From positions 1 through 33,037 of IMG/VR virus record IMGVR_UViG_3300047476_000925: a DNA stretch of 33,037 nt, one strand, 5' to 3'. The DNA comes from a virus. This document shows, one piece after another, positions 1 to 13,180 of the stretch. The notes below the pieces were generated by a model, which had not been told where the DNA came from, ran no database searches, and worked only from the letters and a program-made list of their open reading frames with translations. The first letter of the stretch is position 1; each line of letters opens with the position of its first letter. Made by a program: the position numbers and the translations under genes.

Positions 1-1
1 G

Positions 2-526
2 TACTCTAACGCTCTTCAGATCGATGAGGCCCTGTACAAGGCGCACATCGAGCCTTTGATGCTTTTGATTGTAGACGCGCTTACTGTTGTCTACCTACGC
101 CCATATCTAAAGTCAATTGGCTACTCGGATGTTGACGTAAACCGACTCAACATCTGGTACGACCCATCGCAGGTTGCTACCCGTAACGACCGCGCTGCAG
201 ATGCAGATGCAGGTTTCGACAAGATGGCCGTCAGCTTTGACACCTGGCGTCGTGCTCATGGGTTCTCCGACCAGGATGCTCCAACCCCGGAAGAGTTGGC
301 AATGCGCCTAGTTGTAAACAAGGGTGCGATTACTCCAGAACTAACTGAAGGTCTACTGACTGCAGTGGCTCCAGATATTATGAAGCTTATCCGCGCAACC
401 TCTCAGGCTGAAGCAGTAGCACCAATTCCACCAGAAATTGATCAGCTTCTTAGTGGTCAACCAGCACCTACCGAACCAGCAGCACCCGCTGCAACCCCGA
501 CCCCACTAGCTGAACCAGAGGCATAA
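2..526 (+). CDS. Portal protein, C-terminal part (5' truncated by window edge)
   Basis: The frame is open from base 2, so the gene begins outside the window and about 174 C-terminal codons are visible. The portal forms the dodecameric DNA channel at the head vertex. The visible part has a long helical segment (PLMLLIVDALTVVYLRPYL), then RLNIWYDPSQVATRNDRAADA and SFDTWRRAHGFSDQDAPTPEE, which resemble the C-terminal wing/clip region of actinophage portals as I remember them. It ends in a Pro/Ala-rich tail (PAPTEPAAPAATPTPLAEPEA, split here only by description). The position directly upstream of head genes supports the call. The internal TTG/ATG codons near bases 56-61 are not the true start, since coding continues upstream. 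Because only the C-terminus is visible, another portal-neighbour protein cannot be fully excluded. Confidence 0.65.
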   Translation, partial: YSNALQIDEALYKAHIEPLMLLIVDALTVVYLRPYLKSIGYSDVDVNRLNIWYDPSQVATRNDRAADADAGFDKMAVSFDTWRRAHGFSDQDAPTPEELAMRLVVNKGAITPELTEGLLTAVAPDIMKLIRATSQAEAVAPIPPEIDQLLSGQPAPTEPAAPAATPTPLAEPEA

Positions 527-528
527 AA

Positions 529-1011
529 ATGGACGAGTATTCAGAAGTAACTCCGCAGGAAGTTACCAAATCAGATCTAGGAATGAAACTGGCTCACACC
601 CTTTCAGACGTGGTGTCCGCAAAGTTTCTGGCCCACGGCTATCACTGGAATGTGATGGGCCCAGAGTTTTCTCAGATGCACGATTTCTTTGCCGACATCT
701 ATGCAGAGATTGATTCATCGGTAGACCCGCTTGCTGAAAACATTCTAAAGCTTGGCTATGACGCTCCATACTTGCTGTCTGACTTCCTAGAGATGTCATG
801 CATCCGCGAGGAGCGCATCGAAGGTGGTAACGCTCAGGCTATGGTTGGCTCGCTTCTTAGGGTTAACGAAATGCTTGTTATCTGCTTCACGGAGATCTTC
901 GAGCTAGCCGACACGCTAAACATTCAGGACATTTCAGACTTCGCAGCTTCTCGAATTGACGCTCACGCGAAGTGGGTTTGGCAGCTAAAAGCCACTCTTG
1001 GCATGCGCTAA
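529..1011 (+). CDS. Dps/ferritin-like protein
   Basis: This 160 aa protein has the length and motif spacing of the Dps (DNA-binding protein from starved cells) family, which stores iron and detoxifies peroxide in a dodecameric shell. The ferroxidase signature is intact: H39 in YHWNV, H51 twelve residues later in MHDFF, and D66 and E70 in DPLAEN, the same spacing as the His/His/Asp/Glu ligands of bacterial Dps. One auxiliary acidic position (residue 55) is Ala, with Asp at 56. The C-terminal HAKWVWQLKATLG matches the usual Dps ending. It starts two bases after the portal stop, with AGAGG about nine bases upstream, so it is translated with the head genes. It may be a packaged or host-protecting oxidoreductase, or a shell-like structural protein; the role in the phage is inference. 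Confidence 0.8.
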   Translation: MDEYSEVTPQEVTKSDLGMKLAHTLSDVVSAKFLAHGYHWNVMGPEFSQMHDFFADIYAEIDSSVDPLAENILKLGYDAPYLLSDFLEMSCIREERIEGGNAQAMVGSLLRVNEMLVICFTEIFELADTLNIQDISDFAASRIDAHAKWVWQLKATLGMR

Positions 1012-1106
1012 GCAAATAACCTTCCCAAACCTTCTGTAAACTTTTAATAGGCATTTTTATTGCGCTAACTTTACCTTATTTTTTGGCGTTCAGAAGAAGG
1101 ATACGC

Positions 1107-4100
1107 ATGTCTTATCTAGACAAATTCAAGCTCTCAGCATTAGTAGCGTCTATCGGATTTAACGATGGTGCGAACAAGGGGTTTTGGCGAATCCAGCCAC
1201 GTGCAGCAAAGGGTAGACAGGGTGCTGGCCAGTGGATTGAGATGGGTGCCGAGCTTCGTGCACTACTAAAAGTTAAAGGCAAACTAGTTAGCGTTATTGG
1301 ACGCTCAGTTGGTTCGAACGGAACTCCAGATGGCGTTCGTGTTTTGTTCCAAGGTCTTGCTGATCAGGGTATTCCAGACAGCATCGTAGAAATTCCTACT
1401 CGTTTTCTTGACCTTGTTAGCGCGTCTATTCCTGAAGAACTTCTAAAGAAGAAGGGTATCTCTAAGCCTGGCGCTGTCGAAGACTTGGACCAGGATGCTC
1501 CAAACTTTGAAGACCTACAGCGTGCAGAAGTTACTCCTGACGATATTCGTATTGCCAACGAAGGCATCAACTCTCCAGAAGGTAAAGAGCAAGCTGCCTT
1601 TAAGGACTCTCCAGAAGGTAAGGCTATTGAAGCACTCGAACCAGTTGATACAGGTAAGCCCGCGTCTAATAGCAACTACGAAAAGCGTATCGTCGAAGGC
1701 GAGCTGGATGCTACCGATAAGTTCTCTAATGAAAAGATTAAAGAGAGAGTTTCAAAGCTAGTAAAGCAGCTAGACCCAGCTAGCTCCGACATAGAAAAAG
1801 AGAACGCTAAAAAAGCTGCCATTAAGGCCCTGTCTGACCGTATCCGCGAGCGTGGCGAAGCCGATTACTCTCCCGCTAAGGAGTATGAGTACATCGGTCA
1901 AAGAGATATGGAAATGCTTGATCGCCCAGAGTTCTTTATTGATGACTCTAGTGCCGAAATTCTTGACCCGATCCGCGAGTCCCTAACTAAAGCAGCAGCT
2001 GGAGACGACTCTCTATTCAAAGATGCATTCGAAGCAATGGATGACGGCGTTCTAACCGGAGATGAAAAACTTCAGGCTGTAGCTAACGCAATTAAGTCTC
2101 AGAAGCTAGGGGACATTCAAGGTTCTAAAGAAAAAGCTCGTCAGGCTCAGTACAAGGCCCTAAAGACTCTCGAGGCTGAAGGTGTTGACGTCGGTAATAT
2201 CAACCGCACTGGAAGCACTCCAGCAGAGGATCGCGAAATTGACGGTCCTAACGGTCAAGTAACTCCTCGTATGCGTCAAGCAGCTATTAGAAAGGCTGCT
2301 CAAGATATCGCTGATGGTAAGCCAGTAACTGTTGACGACGTAATTACCTACGCATCTAAGGGCGAGCCTAAAGCATCAGCCATCAAGCCTAAGGGTCAGA
2401 AGCTAAACCTAAAGCCAGGAGATATGAAGCCTGGCGACCGCTTTGACTACAAGGGCGAAGAGTATTCGTTTGAAAGTGCCGGCGAGCGCGACCGAGTTTC
2501 TAAGACTCAGGATGTTGTTGCTACCAACCTACGTACCGGTAAGTCTGAAGATGTAATCCTAGACACCGACAAGACCACCCCTATCTTGCGTCCTGATGCA
2601 GTTCAGCCAGAACCAGCAGCCCCGGCTGCCCCTAAAGCACCAGAGGCTGCTCCAGTCGCTCCTAAAGCCCCAGCGGCTCCTAAGGCTCCTGTTGCCAAGA
2701 AGACCGAGCCTCTACCTAAAGCTACCCCTGCGCCAAAGCCAGAAGAGCTTGCAGCACCAGAGCGCGTAGATAACGGTCAGGATATTGCATTCTCTCCTCT
2801 AACCGATGAAGAGCTATACAACCGTCAGGTTGCATTCGTAGTTCCAGATGCTAATGGTAAGACCAAGAAAGCCTACAACCCTATCACCGGCAAGAATGAA
2901 ATTGCTCAGGATCCAGACGCTATTGTCACCACTCTTCTTCAGGATCACCCGGAAGCAGTTATTAAACCTAACGGTGAGATTATTCTTCAGCGCGAGACAT
3001 TCACTGATAATGCTGGTAAAGAGTGGAAAATCGAAAGCTTTGTTGTTCGTACCGACGGTGCTAACTTTATGGTTGGTTACCGCCTAAAAGATGTAGCTTC
3101 TGGTGAAGAAAAAACCTACTATAGCTACGACTACCGCGACTCATACGCGTCTATCTTTGGTAAGCCCGCTGATCCAACTACTGGAAAACGCCGCGGTAAC
3201 GGTATCCGCCGTATCTCCGATGTTCTACAGGGTAAGGATGAAATCCTCTCTAATGAAAACTCTAAGGAGTTCAAGCAGTTCTTTGCCCCAGGGCGTGGAG
3301 TAGATGGCAGACTACGCTACTTCCGTGACAAATATAAGTCAACTGCTACAGAGGAGTCGCTAGCAAAGGCGCTAGAGAAGGCTAAAGCTGGCGGTAAGAC
3401 CGACGTCATTGCTGAGGCACAGGATCGCTATGACATGCTATTCGATAAATTTGGCGGAGACATTGATCGCTTCCGCGAGTGGGACACCATTCAAAACATG
3501 CGTTTCCTTAATATCGAAGAGACTGCTAGAAAGTACATCTCTGGACGACCTCGCCGATTGAATGAGAGCAAGTCAACAAAGGGCGGAGAAAACACTAGCC
3601 AAGAGGCAAACGTTCTTCGTAGTGCAGTTCCTAGCTTGGTTGACGGAATCCTTACTCAGGACACCGCTACAATCACCGAGCACATGGTTGCGGTTCAGGG
3701 TAGAATGCCTATGCTTTCTAAGAACCCTGAAATTGCGCAGCTGATGTTGGACATGATTACAGAAGAAGTTAATGCTCGCATCCCTAAGGGTAGCCGTAGA
3801 AAGCTTGCTGGATACAAGACTGCAGCGTACAACCAGTGGATCGACAATACCTACACCCCGGACAACGCAAACTCAGTACCTCACGTTGGCTCTGACGGTA
3901 CCGTTATCAAGCCTGGATACTTCGTTGAGTACGAGAACTCTCAGGGAGTTAAATCTCGCGGATATGTTGTAAGTGTTAACGAGCGTGTTGCTAACCCAAG
4001 AAAGCCTAACGAGTATTTCGATACCGTTAACGTTAAGTTTGTTGATTCTAAGGGAAACATCTCTAAGGCAACAGCCCGCCTATGGGCCAAGAACCTAACC

Positions 4101-4475
4101 ACCTATGACAAGACTGGTGACAACGCGGAAGCCCGCAAGCAGATGACTAAATACACCCCTAACCCTAGGGGCGAGGACAAGATTGCTCAGCGCTTCGGAG
4201 AAAATTACCTACAGTACGATAGCGAAGACCCTAACCTAGGATCTGAAGGTGAAGAAGGTGGAGACTCTGGTGACGAGGGTAAGACAGTCGACGACTACGT
4301 AGAAGGTGACCTACACTTCAGCAAAGAAGGCGAACTTCTAGGTGAAGTTGTTGACGTAACTCCGGTCACCAACAAGAAGGGCCAGAGCGGCTTTGTAATC
4401 ACATACATTGACGAGAATGGCGATCTACAGCGAGACACTGTCAAGGCTGGTGAATTCCGCGGCCCAAAACCCTAA
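1107..4475 (+). CDS. Giant head-region protein of unknown function (zero-frame product, 1122 aa)
   Basis: I place the start at ATG 1107 because AAGAAGGA lies just upstream; an in-frame TTG at 1083 has no such site. The N-terminus (FWRIQPRAAKGRQGAGQWIEMG) resembles head-region proteins of other actinophages, but I know no function. A short DSPEGK repeat lies near residues 155-175. A KPGDMKPGDRFDYKGEEY segment near residues 440-457 looks like a small SH3/KOW-type fold. A Pro/Ala/Lys-rich linker covers about residues 498-536. Two more barrel-like segments (PGYFVEYENSQGVKSRGYVV near 940, and HFSKEGELLGEVVDVTP near 1070 onward) close the protein. The position between portal and protease suggests an internal or minor head protein. 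The last codons carry a -1 frameshift signal that should add the next reading frame. Confidence 0.8.
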   Translation: MSYLDKFKLSALVASIGFNDGANKGFWRIQPRAAKGRQGAGQWIEMGAELRALLKVKGKLVSVIGRSVGSNGTPDGVRVLFQGLADQGIPDSIVEIPTRFLDLVSASIPEELLKKKGISKPGAVEDLDQDAPNFEDLQRAEVTPDDIRIANEGINSPEGKEQAAFKDSPEGKAIEALEPVDTGKPASNSNYEKRIVEGELDATDKFSNEKIKERVSKLVKQLDPASSDIEKENAKKAAIKALSDRIRERGEADYSPAKEYEYIGQRDMEMLDRPEFFIDDSSAEILDPIRESLTKAAAGDDSLFKDAFEAMDDGVLTGDEKLQAVANAIKSQKLGDIQGSKEKARQAQYKALKTLEAEGVDVGNINRTGSTPAEDREIDGPNGQVTPRMRQAAIRKAAQDIADGKPVTVDDVITYASKGEPKASAIKPKGQKLNLKPGDMKPGDRFDYKGEEYSFESAGERDRVSKTQDVVATNLRTGKSEDVILDTDKTTPILRPDAVQPEPAAPAAPKAPEAAPVAPKAPAAPKAPVAKKTEPLPKATPAPKPEELAAPERVDNGQDIAFSPLTDEELYNRQVAFVVPDANGKTKKAYNPITGKNEIAQDPDAIVTTLLQDHPEAVIKPNGEIILQRETFTDNAGKEWKIESFVVRTDGANFMVGYRLKDVASGEEKTYYSYDYRDSYASIFGKPADPTTGKRRGNGIRRISDVLQGKDEILSNENSKEFKQFFAPGRGVDGRLRYFRDKYKSTATEESLAKALEKAKAGGKTDVIAEAQDRYDMLFDKFGGDIDRFREWDTIQNMRFLNIEETARKYISGRPRRLNESKSTKGGENTSQEANVLRSAVPSLVDGILTQDTATITEHMVAVQGRMPMLSKNPEIAQLMLDMITEEVNARIPKGSRRKLAGYKTAAYNQWIDNTYTPDNANSVPHVGSDGTVIKPGYFVEYENSQGVKSRGYVVSVNERVANPRKPNEYFDTVNVKFVDSKGNISKATARLWAKNLTTYDKTGDNAEARKQMTKYTPNPRGEDKIAQRFGENYLQYDSEDPNLGSEGEEGGDSGDEGKTVDDYVEGDLHFSKEGELLGEVVDVTPVTNKKGQSGFVITYIDENGDLQRDTVKAGEFRGPKP

Positions 4476-4490
4476 GGGCCGAGTCGGCCC
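4463..4490 (+). promoter_or_regulatory. Predicted -1 programmed ribosomal frameshift site
   Basis: The heptamer CCCAAAA at 4463-4469 is in the correct phase (C CCA AAA). It is followed by six bases, CCCTAA, holding the zero-frame stop, and then by a hairpin at 4476-4490: GGGCCG, loop AGT, CGGCCC, six consecutive G:C pairs. The -1 frame is open from 4454 (its last stop is TGA at 4451-4453) through to 5818, so the two frames overlap by only about 20 bases and the slippery site lies exactly there. Slippage would read ...GPK then TLRAESAPSDKTPQEV. Heptamer, spacer length and stem all match the standard architecture of bacterial and phage frameshift signals. Confidence 0.8.
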
Positions 4491-5818
4491 CGTCCGACAA
4501 GACTCCTCAGGAAGTTGATTTTGACTTTGACGACGAGGATATTGACCTTAGCCAGGTGAAGTTTAAGTACGAAACTGCTGCAGATATTTACAAGGCTAAG
4601 GCGTACCCGGCTCTAGACCCAGCCAGTGCAGACCAGACTGCTAGCAAAGTAATAGCTGACATGTCAGACAGGTTCTTCTTAGCATATGACACAGACGAAC
4701 TGAGAAGACTTGGCACTTTAGCTAAAAGCGTTAAATCTCTTGCCGCAGAGATTGTCGACAATCCTGCAGATAAAGATAAGCGCGAGGAATATAAATTAGC
4801 TCTTCGTAAGCTTGCGGTAGAGGCAAATAATCTTGCAGATGACAAACTTTCATATAAATTTGCCTTCTCGCCTTCCTTAATTAAAGATGATCCAATTCTC
4901 AGCAAGGTAGAGCTGAAGAAACTTAATGACCAGATAAAGGATTCTACTCCAGCGCGCGATGGTGGTATGAAAGTACCGTCAGCATCTGATTTAGAGCAGA
5001 TGATCAAAAACTCCCCCGCTCCAGCAGCCACTTCTGTGCCAAAGGGATGGACTATCCAATCCGACTGGGACTCCTACCAAGAAGAGCTAGAAAAGCAAAA
5101 ATTAGATGCTTGGCGCTTGTCTAGCTACCTGAGCTACGAAGACCCTCAGGTATCTGATGCCGCTGCTAGACGTCTAATCCTATCTAAGTACTGGGATAGA
5201 TTCCGTCTTAAATATGACCCAGCTGCATCAACCAAAATAGTTTCTCCTAACGGTACAGTCCTTAAGGTGACTAGGAGAGCGTCATCAAATAAGCCAGTTG
5301 CTCAGCCGGAAGATATCCTAGCTACTGCTGAGACTATTGATCTAGTGTTCTCTAAGATCAATATGCCAGCCAATACTAAATACTCTCTAGTATCGAGCGG
5401 AACTAGCCGACAGAAGCCAAATGTCCTTGGGTATGCAAATGCCATAGCTGGCGGCCACACTATTGTTGACCGAGTTCGCAAGGCGGAAAAGAGAGATTCT
5501 TCTGAAAAGCCAAAGTTTGTAGAAGACGAGTCTTGGCATTCAACAGATACCTACAAGCGTCCGGGGGACTACTTCCGTCATACTGCTGCCCACGAGCTAG
5601 GGCACGTAGTTGCGTTTGAGGTTTGGTCTTCAGAGTCTCAAATGAATCAAGAGTATGCTGCCCTACGTAAGCAGCAGATCAGCAAATACGGTAAGGAATC
5701 GACTCACGAGCACTTTGCCGAGGCTTTTGCTAAGTATGTTCTTACTGGCAAGGCAACCCCCGAGTTCCTAGACCTTCTACGTAGCAAAAATCTACTAAAG
5801 TCTCAGCGGAACGACTAG
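4469..5818 (+). CDS. Zincin metalloprotease-like domain, expressed as -1 frameshift extension
   Basis: These 449 codons continue the preceding giant protein after the -1 slip, giving a fusion of about 1570 aa. A GTG at 4556 could be called as an independent start, but no good ribosome-binding site precedes it and the 29 codons before it read as normal acidic protein (DFDFDDEDIDLSQ). The domain carries HTAAHELGHVV, the HExxH zinc motif (H346 and H350 counted from 4556), and downstream STHEHFAEAFAKYV supplies glutamates E385 or E389 as third ligand, as in gluzincin-type and anthrax-lethal-factor-like peptidases often attached to phage minor head proteins. The remaining 340 residues are helical and charged with no recognised domain. 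Likely roles are processing of a virion protein or action in the host after ejection; both are inference. Confidence 0.7.
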   Translation, partial: TLRAESAPSDKTPQEVDFDFDDEDIDLSQVKFKYETAADIYKAKAYPALDPASADQTASKVIADMSDRFFLAYDTDELRRLGTLAKSVKSLAAEIVDNPADKDKREEYKLALRKLAVEANNLADDKLSYKFAFSPSLIKDDPILSKVELKKLNDQIKDSTPARDGGMKVPSASDLEQMIKNSPAPAATSVPKGWTIQSDWDSYQEELEKQKLDAWRLSSYLSYEDPQVSDAAARRLILSKYWDRFRLKYDPAASTKIVSPNGTVLKVTRRASSNKPVAQPEDILATAETIDLVFSKINMPANTKYSLVSSGTSRQKPNVLGYANAIAGGHTIVDRVRKAEKRDSSEKPKFVEDESWHSTDTYKRPGDYFRHTAAHELGHVVAFEVWSSESQMNQEYAALRKQQISKYGKESTHEHFAEAFAKYVLTGKATPEFLDLLRSKNLLKSQRND

Positions 5819-5828
5819 GATATAGAAT

Positions 5829-6011
5829 ATGACGGAAAAACCATATCAAACCAAAATCAGAGCTATTTCTGACTCGTTCAATCCGGGCGACACTGCTCCG
5901 GCCGAAGAAATCATTGATTTAGAGCAACTTTCAGAGTCGGAGCTAGAAAAACTAAGCGAAGACATTCCGGAAGCTAGACTAGAGTTACTATACCGAGCCC
6001 TCGCTAAATAA
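5829..6011 (+). CDS. Small acidic protein, unknown
   Basis: This is a 60 aa, strongly acidic protein (LSESELEKLSEDIPEARLEL) that I do not recognise. AGGA lies about nine bases before the ATG, overlapping the end of the metalloprotease-like frame, so the two are translationally close. The second half is predicted by eye to form an amphipathic helix. Its position right behind a protease-like domain would fit an inhibitor or chaperone of that domain, but nothing in the sequence proves this. Confidence 0.6.
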   Translation: MTEKPYQTKIRAISDSFNPGDTAPAEEIIDLEQLSESELEKLSEDIPEARLELLYRALAK

Positions 6012-6012
6012 C

Positions 6013-6024
6013 TAGCCTAGGCTA
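6013..6024. repeat. 12-bp perfect palindrome in an AT-rich gap, possible operator
   Basis: TAGCCTAGGCTA is identical to its reverse complement and begins two bases after the stop of the 60 aa gene. It overlaps a TATGAT sequence at 6023-6028 that could serve as a -10 box for the gene at 6079, though no matching -35 is visible. A dimeric regulator could bind here. A 12-bp palindrome can also occur by chance. Confidence 0.35.
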
Positions 6025-6078
6025 TGATAAAATTAAACTAACTATAGTAGTATTTTAGATACAACTAGAAAGAAAAAA

Positions 6079-6432
6079 ATGGCCGAACTCGATATTACTT
6101 TTGATGTACGCATGTTCGTCAACCCGGAAACCCGAGAAGTTGATGAGATGTACGCCTACCACTCGTTCGGAATCTCTCGCCGAGAGAACGGCACTTGGGC
6201 AGCATACACCCGCGAAGATTCTAACCTAGACGAGCTTACCGACCACATCGAGTACGACCTCAACTGGGATACTGACTACCTAGCCAACGAAGATGCAGGC
6301 GACGATTTTGACGAGCACGCGGCCGTGCTTGCATTTGACGCTGGCACTCTAGACGAGGCCGGAGTTAAGGAGTACGGGACTTTGGTCTACGACCCAGCCA
6401 GCAACGAAGACGACGCTGTTTTCGAAGATTAA
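6079..6432 (+). CDS. Acidic protein, unknown (117 aa)
   Basis: I do not recognise this protein. It is rich in Asp and Glu throughout (YDLNWDTDYLANEDAGDDFD) and has several Trp/Tyr residues, so it is probably a compact, very acidic soluble protein. The ATG is preceded by a purine run (AGAAAGAAAAAA) instead of a clear Shine-Dalgarno sequence. A 67-base AT-rich gap with a palindrome and a TATGAT box precedes it, so it may have its own promoter. Lying among head genes, it could be a small head or assembly factor; DNA mimicry is another possibility for so acidic a protein, but there is no direct support. Confidence 0.65.
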   Translation: MAELDITFDVRMFVNPETREVDEMYAYHSFGISRRENGTWAAYTREDSNLDELTDHIEYDLNWDTDYLANEDAGDDFDEHAAVLAFDAGTLDEAGVKEYGTLVYDPASNEDDAVFED

Positions 6433-6455
6433 TAGCTCCATTCAGGAACGGTAAA

Positions 6456-9176
6456 ATGCTAGAATACATCGGCTCTTCGGGCGAACTGTCTCTATTCAAT
6501 AGTGGCGACTTCGCTGTTGTTATTGACACCTCTATCGACATGGTAGTCCACTACGGATCATTTATTGACACCCTAGAGAGTGCTACCTGGGTTGCCGATG
6601 GCAAAGAGTTCCCGAGCAATATTACTGAACTAGCTGTCCAGGCATTTTCTGTAAATCTAGCATCCGAGCCATTGACTGCTGGTGCTGCTCGTATGTATAC
6701 CATTCCTGGTGGCGTTCAAGCTGAAGCTAAAAAAGCTCTTGCTTGGCGTAAAGAAGAAAAGCGCGGTGGAACTCCGGTAGGTATTAACACCGCTCGCACT
6801 CTTGCAAAGGGTGGCCAGATCGGCATTGAAAAGATTCGCCACATTGCTAAGTACTTCCCTCGTCATGAGGTAGACAAGCAGGGTAAGGGCTGGAAGCCTG
6901 GAACATCTGCATTCCCTTCTAATGGTCGCATCGCTTGGGCGCTTTGGGGTGGAGACGCTGCATGGCGTTGGGCTGAAGCAATCGTAGAGCGCGAAAACAA
7001 GAAAGCCCTATCGGCTAGCGGTTATGCTATCGAAGAAGCATATTCTGGTAGCAAACGTACTAATGAATTTAAGATTGCTCATGAGCTGGATGTCAACGTA
7101 GGCCCCGAGTTCCTTGCCCGTGTTCGTCACGATGGTTCTGGTATTGACCGACTATATAAAATTGAAATTGAAGGCGACGTATATGTCTGGGACGACTGCT
7201 GCTGGGATTCTCTAGGGCACGTTGACGGAGACATCTACACCTATGACGCCGCACTAGATGATGTCTATGACACCTGCGAAAAGACTCACGTAATCATTGA
7301 CCCTAGCTCTGCTATTATCATTGCTTCACAGCTGGACAAAAATCCAATGCTGCCAGTTGCCCTTGAAATGGTAAACCCCGAAGAAGCTCAGCTAGTAGCC
7401 AACGCTATGGAAGAGGTTGACTGGACCTTAGTCGAGAGAGCACTATCTGCAGCTGCCGAGCCTTCAGGCTCCATCAACCCAAATGACAAAGTAGATACTC
7501 CAGCTGAAAAAGCTCAGCGTGCTACTAAGCAAATTAGAAACGCTATGGGAGAATTTGCCAAAGCTGGACAAAGAGTAGCAGTAGCTGGCGACACCGCTAG
7601 AGGCAGCGGTATTGTCGATTCAGTAAACAGTGAAACTGGAACAGCCGTTGTTAAGCTGGACTCCGGTAGAAGTATTGAAGTAGATACTAAGCACCTAGTT
7701 CCAGAGGATAGAGCAACTAATCGTCCAAACGCTACTCGGGTTAACGACTACGAATCTGGTCCGATTGATACTTCAGGAATCCTAGGTGAGCCTAGAACTC
7801 CTATTAATAAGCCTCTAGCTCACCTGCCGGGAACCCTACCTCCGCTAAACGATAAAGAACTTAAAACACTGCTAAATGACTTTGGCAAATACGTAGAAAA
7901 CATGCGTAAATCCTATAAGCCAAGTAGTGCAGCTGACAAAAAGAACGCTACTCAGAAATGGGGAGTTACTAAGTTTGCTGGAGAGAACTCGATCACCGCT
8001 GCAGCAGATGAGGCTAAACCAGAGCTGACTCCAGACACTTCAGATGTAACCCCCAAGTATCTAGCGATCGTTATGCGTGAAGACCCACAAGCGGTAATGG
8101 ATTTGGTAGCCATCGTGCCTGCAAGTGCAACTTCAACAGAGCCTACAACCTATAAGCGTAAAGATGGCCAGTGGGTATACGACGCTCAAGTTTTGATGGA
8201 TCTAAAATCAGCAACTCCACCAGATGTAATTGAACTAGAGGGTGAATACCTAAACGATGTTCTTAAGCAAGTAGACGGCACTAAAGAAATTACTGCCAGC
8301 GCGCAACTTGCAGCACTACTAGACAACGATCTGATCTCGCTAGTTGCTAGTCTTTCAGCTGCAGGTGGTCTGGATCGTAATCGTGGCAATGCCGAAGAAC
8401 TTAGACGTTATTGGACAGTAGGTGAAGGTGCCGCTAAGATCCGCTGGGGAACTCCTGGCGACTGGACTCGTTGCGTTCGTAACCTTTCAAAGTACATGGG
8501 ACCTCGTGCGAAGGGCTACTGCCAGCTTCGCCACAAGGAAGCCACTGGCATCTACACTGGTGACTCAAAGAACCCAGGTAACGACTTCTCTATCGAAGAG
8601 TTTGATAACTCAATGATTGAGCACTCCGTATTGGCTGCCCGCGCCGCAGATGCGAAAAGCCGATTCACTGGAATCGTCGCTGGTGCCGGTGAAACTGGAG
8701 CTAAATTCTCTATCCCGTTGCTGATCCCAGAAGAGCTGGAGTCTGGCGATGGTCGTAAATTTAAGGCTGACGCCATTGAAATCCGTGAGCTTCCACTGCC
8801 ACTAATGTGGCAGATTAAGACTGGCGAAGGTCATAATGGTTCGGTTGTTGTTGGACGCATCGACCACATGGAGAGAACTGAAAATGGTATTGGAAACGCC
8901 TACGGTGTATTCGATACTGGAGCATATGGCCAGGAAGCTGAACGACTAGTTCGTAATGGATTTATTCGCGGTGTATCAGCGGACCTTGACCAGTTCGAGG
9001 CTAAAGAGGATAAGCCAGAAGTTACAGAGAATGCCGAGGGTCCAGAGGAAATCGGCAAACAAAAACTTACCATTAATCACGCCCGTGTAATGGCTGCTAC
9101 AATTGTAGCTAAGCCTGCATTCCAAGAATGTACAATCTTTATTGACGAGGGCGAACCAGATACCCAGGAGTATTAA
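6456..9176 (+). CDS. Multidomain head maturation protease
   Basis: This 906 aa protein starts at ATG 6456 behind AGGAA. Residues about 76-185 form a block (ARTLAKGGQIGIEKIRHIAK, then FPRHEVDKQGKGWKPG and GRIAWALWGGDAAWRWAE) that I know from many phage head-region proteins. A KOW-like stretch follows near 370-415 (VVKLDSGRSIEVDTKHLVPE). Residues about 641-705 (RRYWTVGEGAAKIRWGTPGD, GPRAKGYCQLRHKEATG) form another actinophage-type block. The C-terminus, about 746-898, looks like a prohead protease: LPLPLMWQ, GEGHNGSVVVGRID with H793, and FIRGVSADLDQF with S841 as likely catalytic pair. It would cleave scaffold or capsid extensions during head maturation. It is much longer than the usual 200-300 aa protease, so it probably also acts as scaffold or is self-processed. 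Confidence 0.7.
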   Translation: MLEYIGSSGELSLFNSGDFAVVIDTSIDMVVHYGSFIDTLESATWVADGKEFPSNITELAVQAFSVNLASEPLTAGAARMYTIPGGVQAEAKKALAWRKEEKRGGTPVGINTARTLAKGGQIGIEKIRHIAKYFPRHEVDKQGKGWKPGTSAFPSNGRIAWALWGGDAAWRWAEAIVERENKKALSASGYAIEEAYSGSKRTNEFKIAHELDVNVGPEFLARVRHDGSGIDRLYKIEIEGDVYVWDDCCWDSLGHVDGDIYTYDAALDDVYDTCEKTHVIIDPSSAIIIASQLDKNPMLPVALEMVNPEEAQLVANAMEEVDWTLVERALSAAAEPSGSINPNDKVDTPAEKAQRATKQIRNAMGEFAKAGQRVAVAGDTARGSGIVDSVNSETGTAVVKLDSGRSIEVDTKHLVPEDRATNRPNATRVNDYESGPIDTSGILGEPRTPINKPLAHLPGTLPPLNDKELKTLLNDFGKYVENMRKSYKPSSAADKKNATQKWGVTKFAGENSITAAADEAKPELTPDTSDVTPKYLAIVMREDPQAVMDLVAIVPASATSTEPTTYKRKDGQWVYDAQVLMDLKSATPPDVIELEGEYLNDVLKQVDGTKEITASAQLAALLDNDLISLVASLSAAGGLDRNRGNAEELRRYWTVGEGAAKIRWGTPGDWTRCVRNLSKYMGPRAKGYCQLRHKEATGIYTGDSKNPGNDFSIEEFDNSMIEHSVLAARAADAKSRFTGIVAGAGETGAKFSIPLLIPEELESGDGRKFKADAIEIRELPLPLMWQIKTGEGHNGSVVVGRIDHMERTENGIGNAYGVFDTGAYGQEAERLVRNGFIRGVSADLDQFEAKEDKPEVTENAEGPEEIGKQKLTINHARVMAATIVAKPAFQECTIFIDEGEPDTQEY

Positions 9177-10967
9177 ATGATCCCGCAAGATGGCATCTAT
9201 GAAGAGTCTGTCGACTCAACCCTGGTGGAGACAATCGTTGCTTCTGGATTTCTTGAATCAGAGATTCCACTGACTCCGCCAACAGACTGGTTCTCTAACC
9301 CTAATTTGAACAAGGCTACCCCTTTAACTATTGACCCAAATGGCCGCGTTTACGGACATATTGCAGCTTGGCATGTGAACCATATTGGTATGCCTCGCTC
9401 TACCCGTCCACCACGCTCAAAGAGCAAGTACTCATACTTCCACACTGGTGTAGTTCGCACCGATTCAGGTAAAGATATGCCGGTTGGTCAGCTAACCCTT
9501 GCTGGCGGTCACGCTAATCTAAACGCTAGCGCGGCTCAGGCTGCAAAGCACTACGACGACACTGCATCTGCAATTGCTGATGTCCACGCAGGTGAAGATG
9601 ACTATGGCATTTGGGTAGCAGGTTGCTTACGTCCAGATGCTACCGAGTCTCAGATTCGCGCACTACGCGCATCCGCCCCTTCAGGTGACTGGCGTCCAAT
9701 CAACGGACAGCTTGAGCTTGTTGCAGTTTGCCAGGTTAACGTTCCAGGATTCCCTATCGCCCGTGCCCTAGTTGCATCGGGTAAGGTTATGGCTCTTGTT
9801 GCAGCGGGTGCAAACTACATGGCAGTAATGCGTAGTGAACCTGTGATCGCTCTAGCTACTAAGGCTCAGCTTCTAGGCGACCTAAGTGCATCGGCTCCTA
9901 ACCTTAAAACAAAAGCTCGTGCTGCTAAAAAGGCACTAAAAAAGAGGAACCTAGAGACTCTAAGCTCTACCGTGAATTCTCTAAAAGAGCGCGCACTTAT
10001 TGCTTCTGCTGTCACCGAGCTAGCTAAGTTCTCCGATGAAGAGCGCGAGAAGCTTGCTGATAAGGGACTTGCTCTTCCGGATGGCTCGTACCCTATCCGT
10101 AACGAGCAGGATCTACGTAACGCTATTAGTGCTTACGGTCGCTCTAAGCCTCAGGATCGAGTCAAAGTTCGCAAGCATATTATGAAGCGTGCTCGTTCTC
10201 TCCGTAAGGGATACCTGATCCCAGATGAGTGGGGCACAGCAGCGTCAACCGAGGCATCAACTATTCTCGCATCGATGAGATCTCGTATTGCTACTTTCGC
10301 TGACGAGAAAAAAGAGATCTCAGATGCTGATCTAGAAGAGCTTAAGAAGACTAAAGCAGAAGCTGACAAGCAGACTGAAGAAGAAATTCAAGTTGCCGAG
10401 GATATCCGTACTGGTAAGACTACAGCTAAGGAAATCTATGATGAAGAGGGTAAAAGCAAGTTCATCTCTGGTGTAAACCAGCCTCGTGATGCTAAGGGTA
10501 AATACCGTAAGGTTCTTGCTCGTCTCAAGCAGGATCTAGGTGTTGCCGGACTTCAGGATGCATTGAAAAAGGCAGAAGAAGCCGAGAACATGGACTTTGC
10601 TGGTAACTACGTAAACTCGGCAGAGGCTAGCGGTCAGCTACTAGACATGATTGATCGTCTAGATGTCAAAGCCCTGAACCCTAAGGCCTTAGAGAACGTG
10701 CGCCTTACTGCTGCAGAGCTTGGCAAGACAATTGCCAACCTACCGTTCGCATTCGGAAATGAATCGGACAAACTTAGATTTAGCGATCTACCCGCTGGAC
10801 TCAAGGATCTCATCGACCAGATGATTACTAGAGTTGAAGCAAAGATCGGTAAAGAGGACGCGGCTATTGCTACGCAAGAGCTTAAGTCCTACATGTCCGG
10901 AGCGGACGTTTATTCTCAGGCTGAAGTTCAGTCTCAGATGGCTAAGCTGCTCCGACTCCTTACCTAA
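9177..10967 (+). CDS. Head assembly protein with GRVYGH-type domain and DUF6582-like domain
   Basis: This 596 aa protein begins directly after the TAA of the maturation protease and in the same frame; AGGAG six bases before the ATG supports real initiation. Residues about 38-218 hold an actinophage domain with NGRVYGHIAAWHVNHIG, HYDDTASAIADVHAGEDDYG, APSGDWRPINGQLELVAV and VNVPGFPIARALV. Residues about 285-352 (EKLADKGLALPDGSYPIRNE, RKHIMKRARSLRKGYLIPDE) resemble DUF6582, seen in many phage proteins. The last 230 residues are charged and helical, suited to a scaffold or internal head role. In related phages I recall this domain near the capsid protease, so the pair may be the two halves of one ancestral fusion. 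Catalytic activity is not evident. Confidence 0.65.
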   Translation: MIPQDGIYEESVDSTLVETIVASGFLESEIPLTPPTDWFSNPNLNKATPLTIDPNGRVYGHIAAWHVNHIGMPRSTRPPRSKSKYSYFHTGVVRTDSGKDMPVGQLTLAGGHANLNASAAQAAKHYDDTASAIADVHAGEDDYGIWVAGCLRPDATESQIRALRASAPSGDWRPINGQLELVAVCQVNVPGFPIARALVASGKVMALVAAGANYMAVMRSEPVIALATKAQLLGDLSASAPNLKTKARAAKKALKKRNLETLSSTVNSLKERALIASAVTELAKFSDEEREKLADKGLALPDGSYPIRNEQDLRNAISAYGRSKPQDRVKVRKHIMKRARSLRKGYLIPDEWGTAASTEASTILASMRSRIATFADEKKEISDADLEELKKTKAEADKQTEEEIQVAEDIRTGKTTAKEIYDEEGKSKFISGVNQPRDAKGKYRKVLARLKQDLGVAGLQDALKKAEEAENMDFAGNYVNSAEASGQLLDMIDRLDVKALNPKALENVRLTAAELGKTIANLPFAFGNESDKLRFSDLPAGLKDLIDQMITRVEAKIGKEDAAIATQELKSYMSGADVYSQAEVQSQMAKLLRLLT

Positions 10968-11064
10968 AAAGTAAGGTAAAATTAGTGATAGGTGGAGCGC
11001 CTCGCACACGCATGTGAGAGTCCCTCGCCTTGACTGTTCACCGACATGCACAACCGTGTATGTC
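10958..11064 (+). promoter_or_regulatory. Structured leader of the capsid gene (three tandem hairpins)
   Basis: The 122-base gap before the capsid start holds consecutive inverted repeats. The first is CCTTAC/GTAAGG at 10958-10976, overlapping the previous stop. The second is CTCGCACA/TGTGAGAG at 11001-11020 with one mismatch and a four-base loop. The third is GACATGCAC/GTGTATGTC at 11043-11064, nine pairs with one G:U. None is followed by a T-run, so they are more likely mRNA structures than terminators. TTGACT at 11030-11035 could be a -35 box, but I see no -10 at normal spacing. Confidence 0.5.
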
Positions 11065-11089
11065 AAAAATAACTGGCCTAGGAGGTACA

Positions 11090-13180
11090 GTGTACGACCA
11101 GATTAAGACTCAGCTTGATACTATCGCTGAGCTTGGTGACGAGCAAGTCGCCGAGCTACAGGCAGATATTATCAGCCAGTTTGAAATGGTTGAGGGTGAA
11201 GACCCGACTCCTGAAACAGTTGATGCTATGACGTCTCTTGCAGACTCTCTTGACATCGTGAAGGGTGAGCTGGCTCGTCGAGAGGCACTTGCCGAAGAGC
11301 TAGCAGCCCGTGCGGCTGAGGCTACTGCCCGTGTTAAGGGTAGTGCTGAAGAGACCGGAGAGGAAATGGCTATGGATGAGCCTACTAACGAAGAACTTCC
11401 TGTAGAGGAAGTACCTGCGGAGGAAGCTCCAGTAGAAGAAGCCCCAGTGGAAACTGAGGAAGCTCCTGCTGAAGAAGCCAAAGAGACCGAGGAAGAGGAC
11501 GAGGAGAAGAAGGCTATGAAAGCTTCTGCCGAGACCCCAGCCGAGGAAGCATCAATTGATCAGGAATCAGATTCTGAGCTATCAACCGACGAATCAGTAG
11601 AAGAAATTACTGAAGAAACCATCACTGCAGACGCATCTGTTGAAGAAGTTGTTGCTGAAGTTGTAGAGGAAGCAGCTGTTGAAGCTGAAGTCCCTGCTGC
11701 TGAAGTAGCCGCTGAAGAAACTGTTGCTGAAGTAGCAGTCGAAGCTGAAGCAGCTGTAGCGGAAGAAACCGCTGTAGTTGAGGCAGTGGAAGGTTCTGAA
11801 GCTTCTGCTGAAGAAACCACTCTAGAAACATCACCTATCGCTGAAGAGATTCAGCAGGAAGAGCAGGCAACTGTGACCGCATCAGCAGAAGGAATCATCG
11901 AGGTTCCAGCTGACCGTCAGCCTGTAGTTCAGGTAACAGAATCAGCACCAGTAGTGGCAATCACCGCTGGCGCAGACATTCCTGGCTACACCGCAGGCAG
12001 CACCATCAACGATATGAACGAAGTAGCTCAGGCTATGGAAAAGCGTATCCACTCACTACGCCGTGTTAACGGTGGCGACGGAGAGCAGCACATTGTTGCA
12101 TCTATCACCACTCAGTTTGACGAGGCACGCACCCTAACTACCGATGCAGAGGCTAACTCAGCTAAGATCTCAGCTTTCGCGGCTGACTCTCAGGCTCTTG
12201 TTGCTTCTGGTGGTCACGGTGCTCCTTTCGAAGTTAAGTACGACATCTTCGGTCTTGGTTCAACCACTGCCCGTCCTGTTCGTGACTCACTTCCTAAGTT
12301 CCAGGCAGACCGTGGCGGTATCCGCTTCGTAACTCCTCCATCATTTGCTTCAGGCGACTACGCTGACGCTGTTGGTGTATGGACTGCTGCAAACGATTCA
12401 GCTGAGACTCCTTCTCCTTCGACCAAGGCATCTCTAACTGTTTCTGCTGCTGCAGAACTAACTGCAACCACTGACGCTGTAACCCTACAGCTACAGTTCG
12501 GTAACTTGATGACCCGTGCATACCCAGAGCTAATCGCTCGCCACAACGAGCTAGCTCTTGTACAGCACGCTCGCGAGGCAGAGCAGAACCTACTAACCAA
12601 GATTGGTGACGCTTCAACCGCTGTTACCACTTCTTCGCTAATCGGTTTTGGTCGCGACTTCCTAGTTCAGATCCGCCGTGCAGCAGTTGCTTACCGTTCA
12701 CGTCACCGTATCGACGCTGGTACTCAGCTAAAGGCTATCGTGCCTGACTGGGTTATCGATGCAATGGCAGCTGACTTGACTCTATCAATGCCAGGCGATG
12801 GTACCATCGCTCTGTCAAAGGCAGAGATCGAGGGCTACCTAGCTAACAGCAACGTAACTCTAGTTGCATCTCCAGATGCAACTCCATTTGGTGCACAGGG
12901 TGCTACCTCACTAGTTGAGTTCTTTGACTCATTCGTGTGGTACATCTTCGCTGAGGGAACATTCTTGTTCCTTGACGGTGGAACCCTTGACCTCGGAATT
13001 ATCCGCGACTCATCTCTAGTTGGCACCAACGACTACAAGATGTTCGTTGAGACCTTCGAAGGTGTAGCAAAGGTTGGTATTGAGTCATTGAAGATTACTT
13101 CAACCATCTCAATCAACGGTGTTGCTGCAGCACTTCGTGACACCACTGGTGGCGCTACTGCCGCTGCTGTAGAGTACTAA
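11090..13180 (+). CDS. Major capsid protein with long acidic N-terminal extension
   Basis: I set the start at GTG 11090, five bases behind AGGAGG; an upstream in-frame TTG at 11030 has no such site. The 696 aa product divides in two. Residues 1-90 form a helical, coiled-coil-like segment; residues about 90-265 are low-complexity Glu/Ala/Val (PAEEAPVEEAPVETEEAPAE). From about residue 291 (ITAGADIPGYTAGS) the HK97-fold capsid core begins, a junction typical of actinophage capsid proteins. Later segments such as TRAYPELIARHNELALVQHA and LKAIVPDWVIDAMAADL match capsid-core patterns. The extension is far longer than the roughly 100-residue delta domain of HK97 and probably works as fused scaffold removed by the maturation protease. 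Cleavage near residue 290 is inference. Confidence 0.85.
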   Translation: MYDQIKTQLDTIAELGDEQVAELQADIISQFEMVEGEDPTPETVDAMTSLADSLDIVKGELARREALAEELAARAAEATARVKGSAEETGEEMAMDEPTNEELPVEEVPAEEAPVEEAPVETEEAPAEEAKETEEEDEEKKAMKASAETPAEEASIDQESDSELSTDESVEEITEETITADASVEEVVAEVVEEAAVEAEVPAAEVAAEETVAEVAVEAEAAVAEETAVVEAVEGSEASAEETTLETSPIAEEIQQEEQATVTASAEGIIEVPADRQPVVQVTESAPVVAITAGADIPGYTAGSTINDMNEVAQAMEKRIHSLRRVNGGDGEQHIVASITTQFDEARTLTTDAEANSAKISAFAADSQALVASGGHGAPFEVKYDIFGLGSTTARPVRDSLPKFQADRGGIRFVTPPSFASGDYADAVGVWTAANDSAETPSPSTKASLTVSAAAELTATTDAVTLQLQFGNLMTRAYPELIARHNELALVQHAREAEQNLLTKIGDASTAVTTSSLIGFGRDFLVQIRRAAVAYRSRHRIDAGTQLKAIVPDWVIDAMAADLTLSMPGDGTIALSKAEIEGYLANSNVTLVASPDATPFGAQGATSLVEFFDSFVWYIFAEGTFLFLDGGTLDLGIIRDSSLVGTNDYKMFVETFEGVAKVGIESLKITSTISINGVAAALRDTTGGATAAAVEY

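Follow-up and report, generated by a model that had tools for sequence, protein, structure and literature searches.

Phage-encoded Dps proteins as such were known before this study, and they have been proposed to raise the oxidative-stress tolerance of the host (PMC8008677). Those of the Stanwilliamsviridae, Grimontviridae/phiEco32 relatives, cyanophage S-SRM01, and 'Gratiaviridae' belong to the same family (phrog_3636) as the protein described here, but where their surroundings are annotated, they are found among early, DNA-metabolism or accessory genes, and they fall outside the head-linked clade defined below. In cultured Streptomyces, Salmonella, Cronobacter, and Aeromonas phages, dps is present among early or nucleotide-metabolism/replication genes, and this placement favors an intracellular role in those phages. 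Among cellular proteins, the closest solved relative is PaDps (PA0962) of P. aeruginosa, a stress protein with no tie to virus assembly, in whose crystal structures Fe1 is bound by H37, D64, and E68 and Fe2 by H49 and E68 (PMC10002758). The pairing of an HK97-fold shell with ferritin-like cargo is known from encapsulins, for which targeting-peptide and shell-fused classes exist (PMC11202242).

The locus analyzed here lies in a 33,037-nucleotide stretch of a virus record (IMGVR_UViG_3300047476_000925; hereafter the window), which opens within a portal gene and continues into a head cassette, with a head maturation protease and a major head protein placed before the tail genes and replication genes (Table 1). 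The closest named phages are DSL-LC01 ('Nanparkviridae'), which was assembled from a lake metagenome and has a predicted host within the Actinomycetia (PMC10611076), and Microbacterium phages such as Pumpernickel, with portal/capsid identities of 71/70% and 65/58%, respectively. These phages have a similar cassette order but, unlike the window, no Dps after the portal. Cultured neighbors of the window phage infect Microbacterium, Arthrobacter, and Gordonia, and together with the prediction for DSL-LC01, this suggests that the host is probably an actinobacterium.

The portal remnant at the start of the window comprises the C-terminal 174 aa of the protein and is 64-84% identical to the portal C-termini of relatives. 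The ATG of dps lies 2 bases past the portal stop codon (TAA, 524-526), and the first-pass annotation of a gene wedged against the portal is thus real, as judged from the ORF map and the phrog_776 match upstream. The CCAGAGGCATAA context was found again at the portal/Dps joint in many relatives. A scan of the nearby plus strand identified neither a promoter nor a terminator of its own for dps above chance, and Rfam and tRNA scans of the whole window gave no matches.

Several other genes of the cassette have features worth recording. The large protein at 1107-4475 has an N-terminal motif like GANKGFWRxQxRDxxGRWxxMG, which is common to unrelated-looking large head-cassette proteins (also in L013 122-4057 and 10916-15028, L181 4384-11091, L183 3693-13034, and L180 6169-7569) and might mark proteins brought into the head. 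The gene at 4556-5818, between portal and protease, contains a zincin-like HELGHVV motif, with weak, sub-threshold matches to metallopeptidases. The first ~280 residues of the major head protein are extremely rich in Glu, Ala, and Val and are possibly a scaffold-like delta region.

Table 1. Features of the window discussed in the text (positions are those of the window).
Feature	Position	Strand	Basis or remark
Portal protein gene, C-terminal part (gene cut by the window start)	2..526	+	phrog_776, 1.8e-26
Shine-Dalgarno-like AGAGG within the last portal codons	517..521	+	7 nt upstream of the Dps ATG
Dps (mini-ferritin), standalone, 160 aa	529..1011	+	Pfam Ferritin, PaDps 8ff9, AF2, Foldseek
His39 ligand codon (Fe1 site)	643..645	+	aligns with PaDps H37; conserved in 77/77
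His51 ligand codon (Fe2 site)	679..681	+	aligns with PaDps H49; conserved in 77/77
Asp66 ligand codon (Fe1 site)	724..726	+	aligns with PaDps D64; conserved in 77/77
Glu70 ligand codon (bridging)	736..738	+	aligns with PaDps E68; conserved in 77/77
Large cassette protein	1107..4475	+	likely start ATG 1107, not TTG 1083; homologues after Dps in most relatives
Head-cassette protein, phrog_859/6439 domains	6456..9176	+	homology with the first part of the giant proteins in L350/L351
Head maturation protease (residues ~1-240) and C-terminal part	9177..10967	+	phrog_18402, 7.6e-62
Site matching the L350/L351 Dps insertion, Dps-free in the window	9894..9951	+	tblastn colinearity
Major head (capsid) protein	11030..13180	+	phrog_777, 4.3e-77

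The ORF behind the portal matches Pfam PF00210 (Ferritin) at 6.8e-13, better than the family cut-off, phrog_3636 at 5e-20 in a PHROGs search, and PaDps (PDB 8ff9) at 5.7e-20 in a search of PDB sequences, and the profile searches did not place it outside ferritin-like proteins. Its AF2 model (pLDDT 95.7) has helices at residues 14-41, 47-62, 65-74, 83-89, 102-129, and 133-156, forming a four-helix ferritin-like fold with the BC helix of Dps. Foldseek ranks 8ff9 first for this model, and the best 50 Foldseek matches listed are Dps-type mini-ferritins. PaDps is thus the best match in both sequence and fold, with the same four di-iron ligands, although it is only ~30% identical to the window protein. 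These results confirm, at the level of sequence and predicted structure, that the ORF encodes a true Dps-type ferroxidase, and the first-pass assignment is borne out.

The ligand spacing had been described as complete, and this holds for a PaDps-type, four-ligand site. H39, H51, D66, and E70 correspond to the inter-subunit di-iron ligands at Dps spacing, and since all four are kept in 77 of 77 aligned phage relatives (33-76% identity to the window Dps), the match is far beyond chance; the loss of ligands in close relatives, which had been named as evidence against a ferroxidase, was not observed. Only nine columns of the alignment are invariant (H39, W40, N41, G44, F47, H51, D66, E70, and W151), and the iron ligands account for four of them. 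The search that yielded the fused sequences described below gave 77 ORFs with the HWN motif typical of Dps, and these also keep the four ligands. The description as complete does not extend to a fifth ligand, an acidic residue that in the Dps of E. coli (D67) and Listeria follows the second His by four positions. The window Dps has Ala55 at this position, and Asp never occurs there among the 77 phage relatives. In the cellular relatives sampled, Glu and Met predominate at this position (35 of 80 have Met); PaDps has Glu, and this residue is absent from the PaDps ligand list (PMC10002758). Judged from these sequences, the fifth ligand is no defining feature of the PaDps branch. A ferroxidase site decayed at Ala55 was considered and rejected, as cellular relatives vary there too and PaDps is without that ligand. 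The dN/dS of dps in close pairs is 0.03-0.13, in the same range as that of the portal, and the four-ligand di-iron site is under strong purifying selection. In addition, Dps divergence follows portal divergence (Mantel r 0.79, a value reached in none of 999 permutations), as expected from long joint inheritance.

Non-specific DNA binding, which had also been put forward at first pass, is not supported. The window Dps is acidic (pI 4.46), with a net charge of -3 in its N-terminal part, and we looked in its sequence for the lysine-rich (basic) tail of E. coli-type DNA binding and found none. Many Dps proteins do not bind DNA. Binding via a charged tail was therefore rejected as the default for this acidic protein, and the view of Dps as a coat on DNA, drawn from E. 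coli, should not be applied to it.

In the viral collection, dps is immediately 3' of a homologous portal gene at all 96 loci found with Dps queries, a number that includes repeats of one contig. To avoid the bias of Dps queries, we also searched with the portal and built a portal tree from representatives. In the window's portal clade, standalone Dps follows the portal in 60 of 62 representatives, and the sister clade (38 representatives) includes 14 with Dps fused to a longer protein, 13 without Dps, 10 with standalone Dps, and one with Dps upstream. Relatives without Dps include DSL-LC01 and two large contigs, L301 and L314, and Dps is therefore dispensable for heads. Overall, the place in the head cassette that was noted at first pass is real and conserved across relatives. 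Some individual loci depart from the common arrangement. In L330 (1601-2110), dps is directly upstream, not downstream, of the portal, and in L061 (8216-10444), portal and Dps share one frame with a single TAG between them, so that read-through would yield a portal-Dps fusion. L074 and L077 have identical Dps and differing portals (dN 0.037, dS 0.35), a sign of local recombination.

In the Dps tree, the head-linked phage proteins form a single clade with 95% SH-aLRT support, separate from the sampled cellular and cultured-phage Dps. The tree suggests that a single origin is likely, short of proven given a short alignment, some long branches, and a set of cellular sequences limited to those sharing search peptides. 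A single Dps match was present in each Dps-bearing record of two sets (9 of 9, L350 and L351 among them, and 16 of 16), some of which may be fragments, and the large contigs have one copy each; this suggests that the domain moves between sites and does not gain extra copies. About 20 further phage Dps of this clade have no assigned gene context. In one set of phages, which includes L393 (3446-6420) and L406 (4144-6447), dps lies downstream of a cytidyltransferase gene, either adjoining it or with one short gene in between. Both observations weigh against the head-cargo reading given below.

The first-pass annotation had also proposed that the protein is made with head genes and perhaps packaged, and this proposal is strengthened by fusions of Dps to head proteases. 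Two contigs of the window's family, L350 and L351, with portals 68-69% identical and the same protease-MCP-tail order, contain a Dps domain in frame inside the homologue of the window protein at 9177-10967, between its two parts, of which the C-terminal one is probably scaffold-like. In L350, a single open frame of 2363 aa comprises protease residues 2-239, Dps, and residues 259-588, and in L351, residues 1-233, Dps, and residues 260-352 precede a stop in one frame, with the rest of the homologue in another. A separate group (L357, L365, L376, L385, and others) encodes single polypeptides of roughly 600-850 aa that join an S78 prohead protease to Dps and an acidic tail resembling a coiled coil; the window-type portal was not detected in the three members of this group that were checked. 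The major head protein gene follows the S78 protease-Dps fusion in L357, and the fusion in L352/L353 is located between portal and virion structural protein genes. We count 22 distinct fused sequences overall (<97% identity in the Dps part), including L350, L351, and some truncated ones. In L100 and L337/L338, dps follows a phrog_2522-type major head protein; the L100 stretch (1-7041) was binned to a gammaproteobacterial genome and looks like phage DNA. By conserved position or by fusion with portal, protease or capsid genes, dps thus belongs to the head-assembly module. Our literature search, which covered open-license PMC papers, found no report of phage Dps in virions or of protease-Dps fusions, and virion proteomics turned up for none of the members.

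In the 14 sister-clade fusions, the Dps partner carries DUF5824 and related modules, and a DUF5824 protein without Dps also sits after the portal in several Dps-less relatives. A DUF5824-like stretch is present in a gene between the portal and main capsid genes of the unrelated Roseobacter phage CRP-823. In Melnitz phages, the DUF5824/CWxGYKQ module is fused to a cytidyltransferase, and cytidyltransferases occur in cyanophage virions (PMC10665884). The module is absent from the S-CREM2 virion protein gp154 (287 aa) and its neighbors gp155 and gp156, and we therefore rejected the idea that DUF5824/CWxGYKQ is proven to target proteins to virions. For the fusion tail, AF2 gave a weak model (pLDDT 66), and the BFVD matches of this model, among them proteins annotated as prohead protease and XkdF, are only suggestive. 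Three Dps-DUF5824 fusions (L268 5075-6829, L299 3423-5612, and L325 2580-4628) have Cys-rich stretches beside the ferroxidase domain, with a CxNC...C...C segment resembling high-potential iron-sulfur proteins.

Taken together, the position and the fusions lead us to lean toward Dps as a head cargo that is delivered via the prohead to detoxify iron and peroxide in the surroundings of the genome, whether packaged or newly injected. Prohead proteases and scaffold segments lie inside the prohead in HK97- and T4-type phages, and a Dps built into the protease polypeptide would therefore ride inside it. The simplest reading of the standalone Dps is that it serves the same function without covalent linkage, and the protein is probably carried within the particle beside the DNA. 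Dps would be made late together with the head proteins, would enter the prohead through its own contacts in the standalone form and through covalent linkage in the fused form, and would stay with the packaged DNA. Given its intact PaDps-type site, the protein, expected to form the usual 12-mer cage, should oxidize Fe2+ with H2O2 and hold Fe3+ in the particle, during packaging or upon ejection, and would thereby suppress Fenton attack on the genome.

Two rivals stand out, namely action as a late intracellular antioxidant and a role in assembly. As an antioxidant, Dps would remain unpackaged in the infected cell and lower free iron and peroxide during head filling, with the position behind the portal setting only timing and dose. 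This would suit the standalone gene of the window, the host-stress role proposed for phage Dps elsewhere (PMC8008677), and the cultured phages that keep dps away from head genes, but it leaves unexplained the in-frame protease insertions in two phage groups and the fusions to a post-portal protein, and we consider it unlikely, if still deserving of serious attention. The placement of Dps between protease and C-terminal scaffold-like segments could also be taken to mean that Dps, as a metal-dependent oligomer, takes part with protease and scaffold in building the prohead core, its iron chemistry being secondary. At neutral pH, PaDps needs divalent metal to form its 12-mer (PMC10002758), and conserved ligands could accordingly serve assembly. 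However, relatives assemble heads without Dps, and W40 is retained together with all Fe1/Fe2 ligands, beyond what a structural metal would need, which makes a structural part improbable.

Two further explanations fare worse. DUF3626 and DUF5824 proteins occupy the slot after the portal in Dps-less relatives, as might be expected if this were an accessory slot and dps a cargo gene under neutral or loose selection, yet the dN/dS of dps (0.03-0.13) is as low as that of the portal, the ligands are invariant, and 60 of 62 clade members retain it, and we regard such loose selection as very improbable. PaDps also cleaves DNA in vitro (PMC10002758), and the phage protein could by analogy be a metal-dependent nuclease acting on DNA; the residues for this activity are undefined, identity to PaDps is low, as given above, and it is implausible that a phage would pack a free nuclease together with its own genome, so that we give this idea almost no credence.

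Head-cargo Dps would resemble encapsulins in that an HK97-type shell is paired with a ferritin-like ferroxidase, a functional similarity that is loosely analogous. It is not an encapsulin, however: the window is that of a phage with portal, protease, MCP, and tail rather than of a stand-alone shell, the cargo is Dps and not EncFtn or IMEF, and the fusions are to protease or cassette proteins and not to the shell protein. We tentatively suggest, short of an even expectation, that several groups of tailed phages place a ferroxidase mini-ferritin inside HK97-type heads through protease fusion or co-assembly, as a viral counterpart of encapsulin cargo that is possibly kin in origin.

Phage Dps have so far been classed as host-stress helpers, and what is newly found is a phage-specific Dps clade tied to head assembly. 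If Dps is indeed a head cargo, virions would carry their own iron and peroxide chemistry, which would bear on phage survival in oxidizing surroundings and on iron in phage particles. An HK97-type shell together with a ferritin-like enzyme is also the same pairing as in encapsulins, and ideas on the origin of encapsulins from phage heads may thereby become testable.
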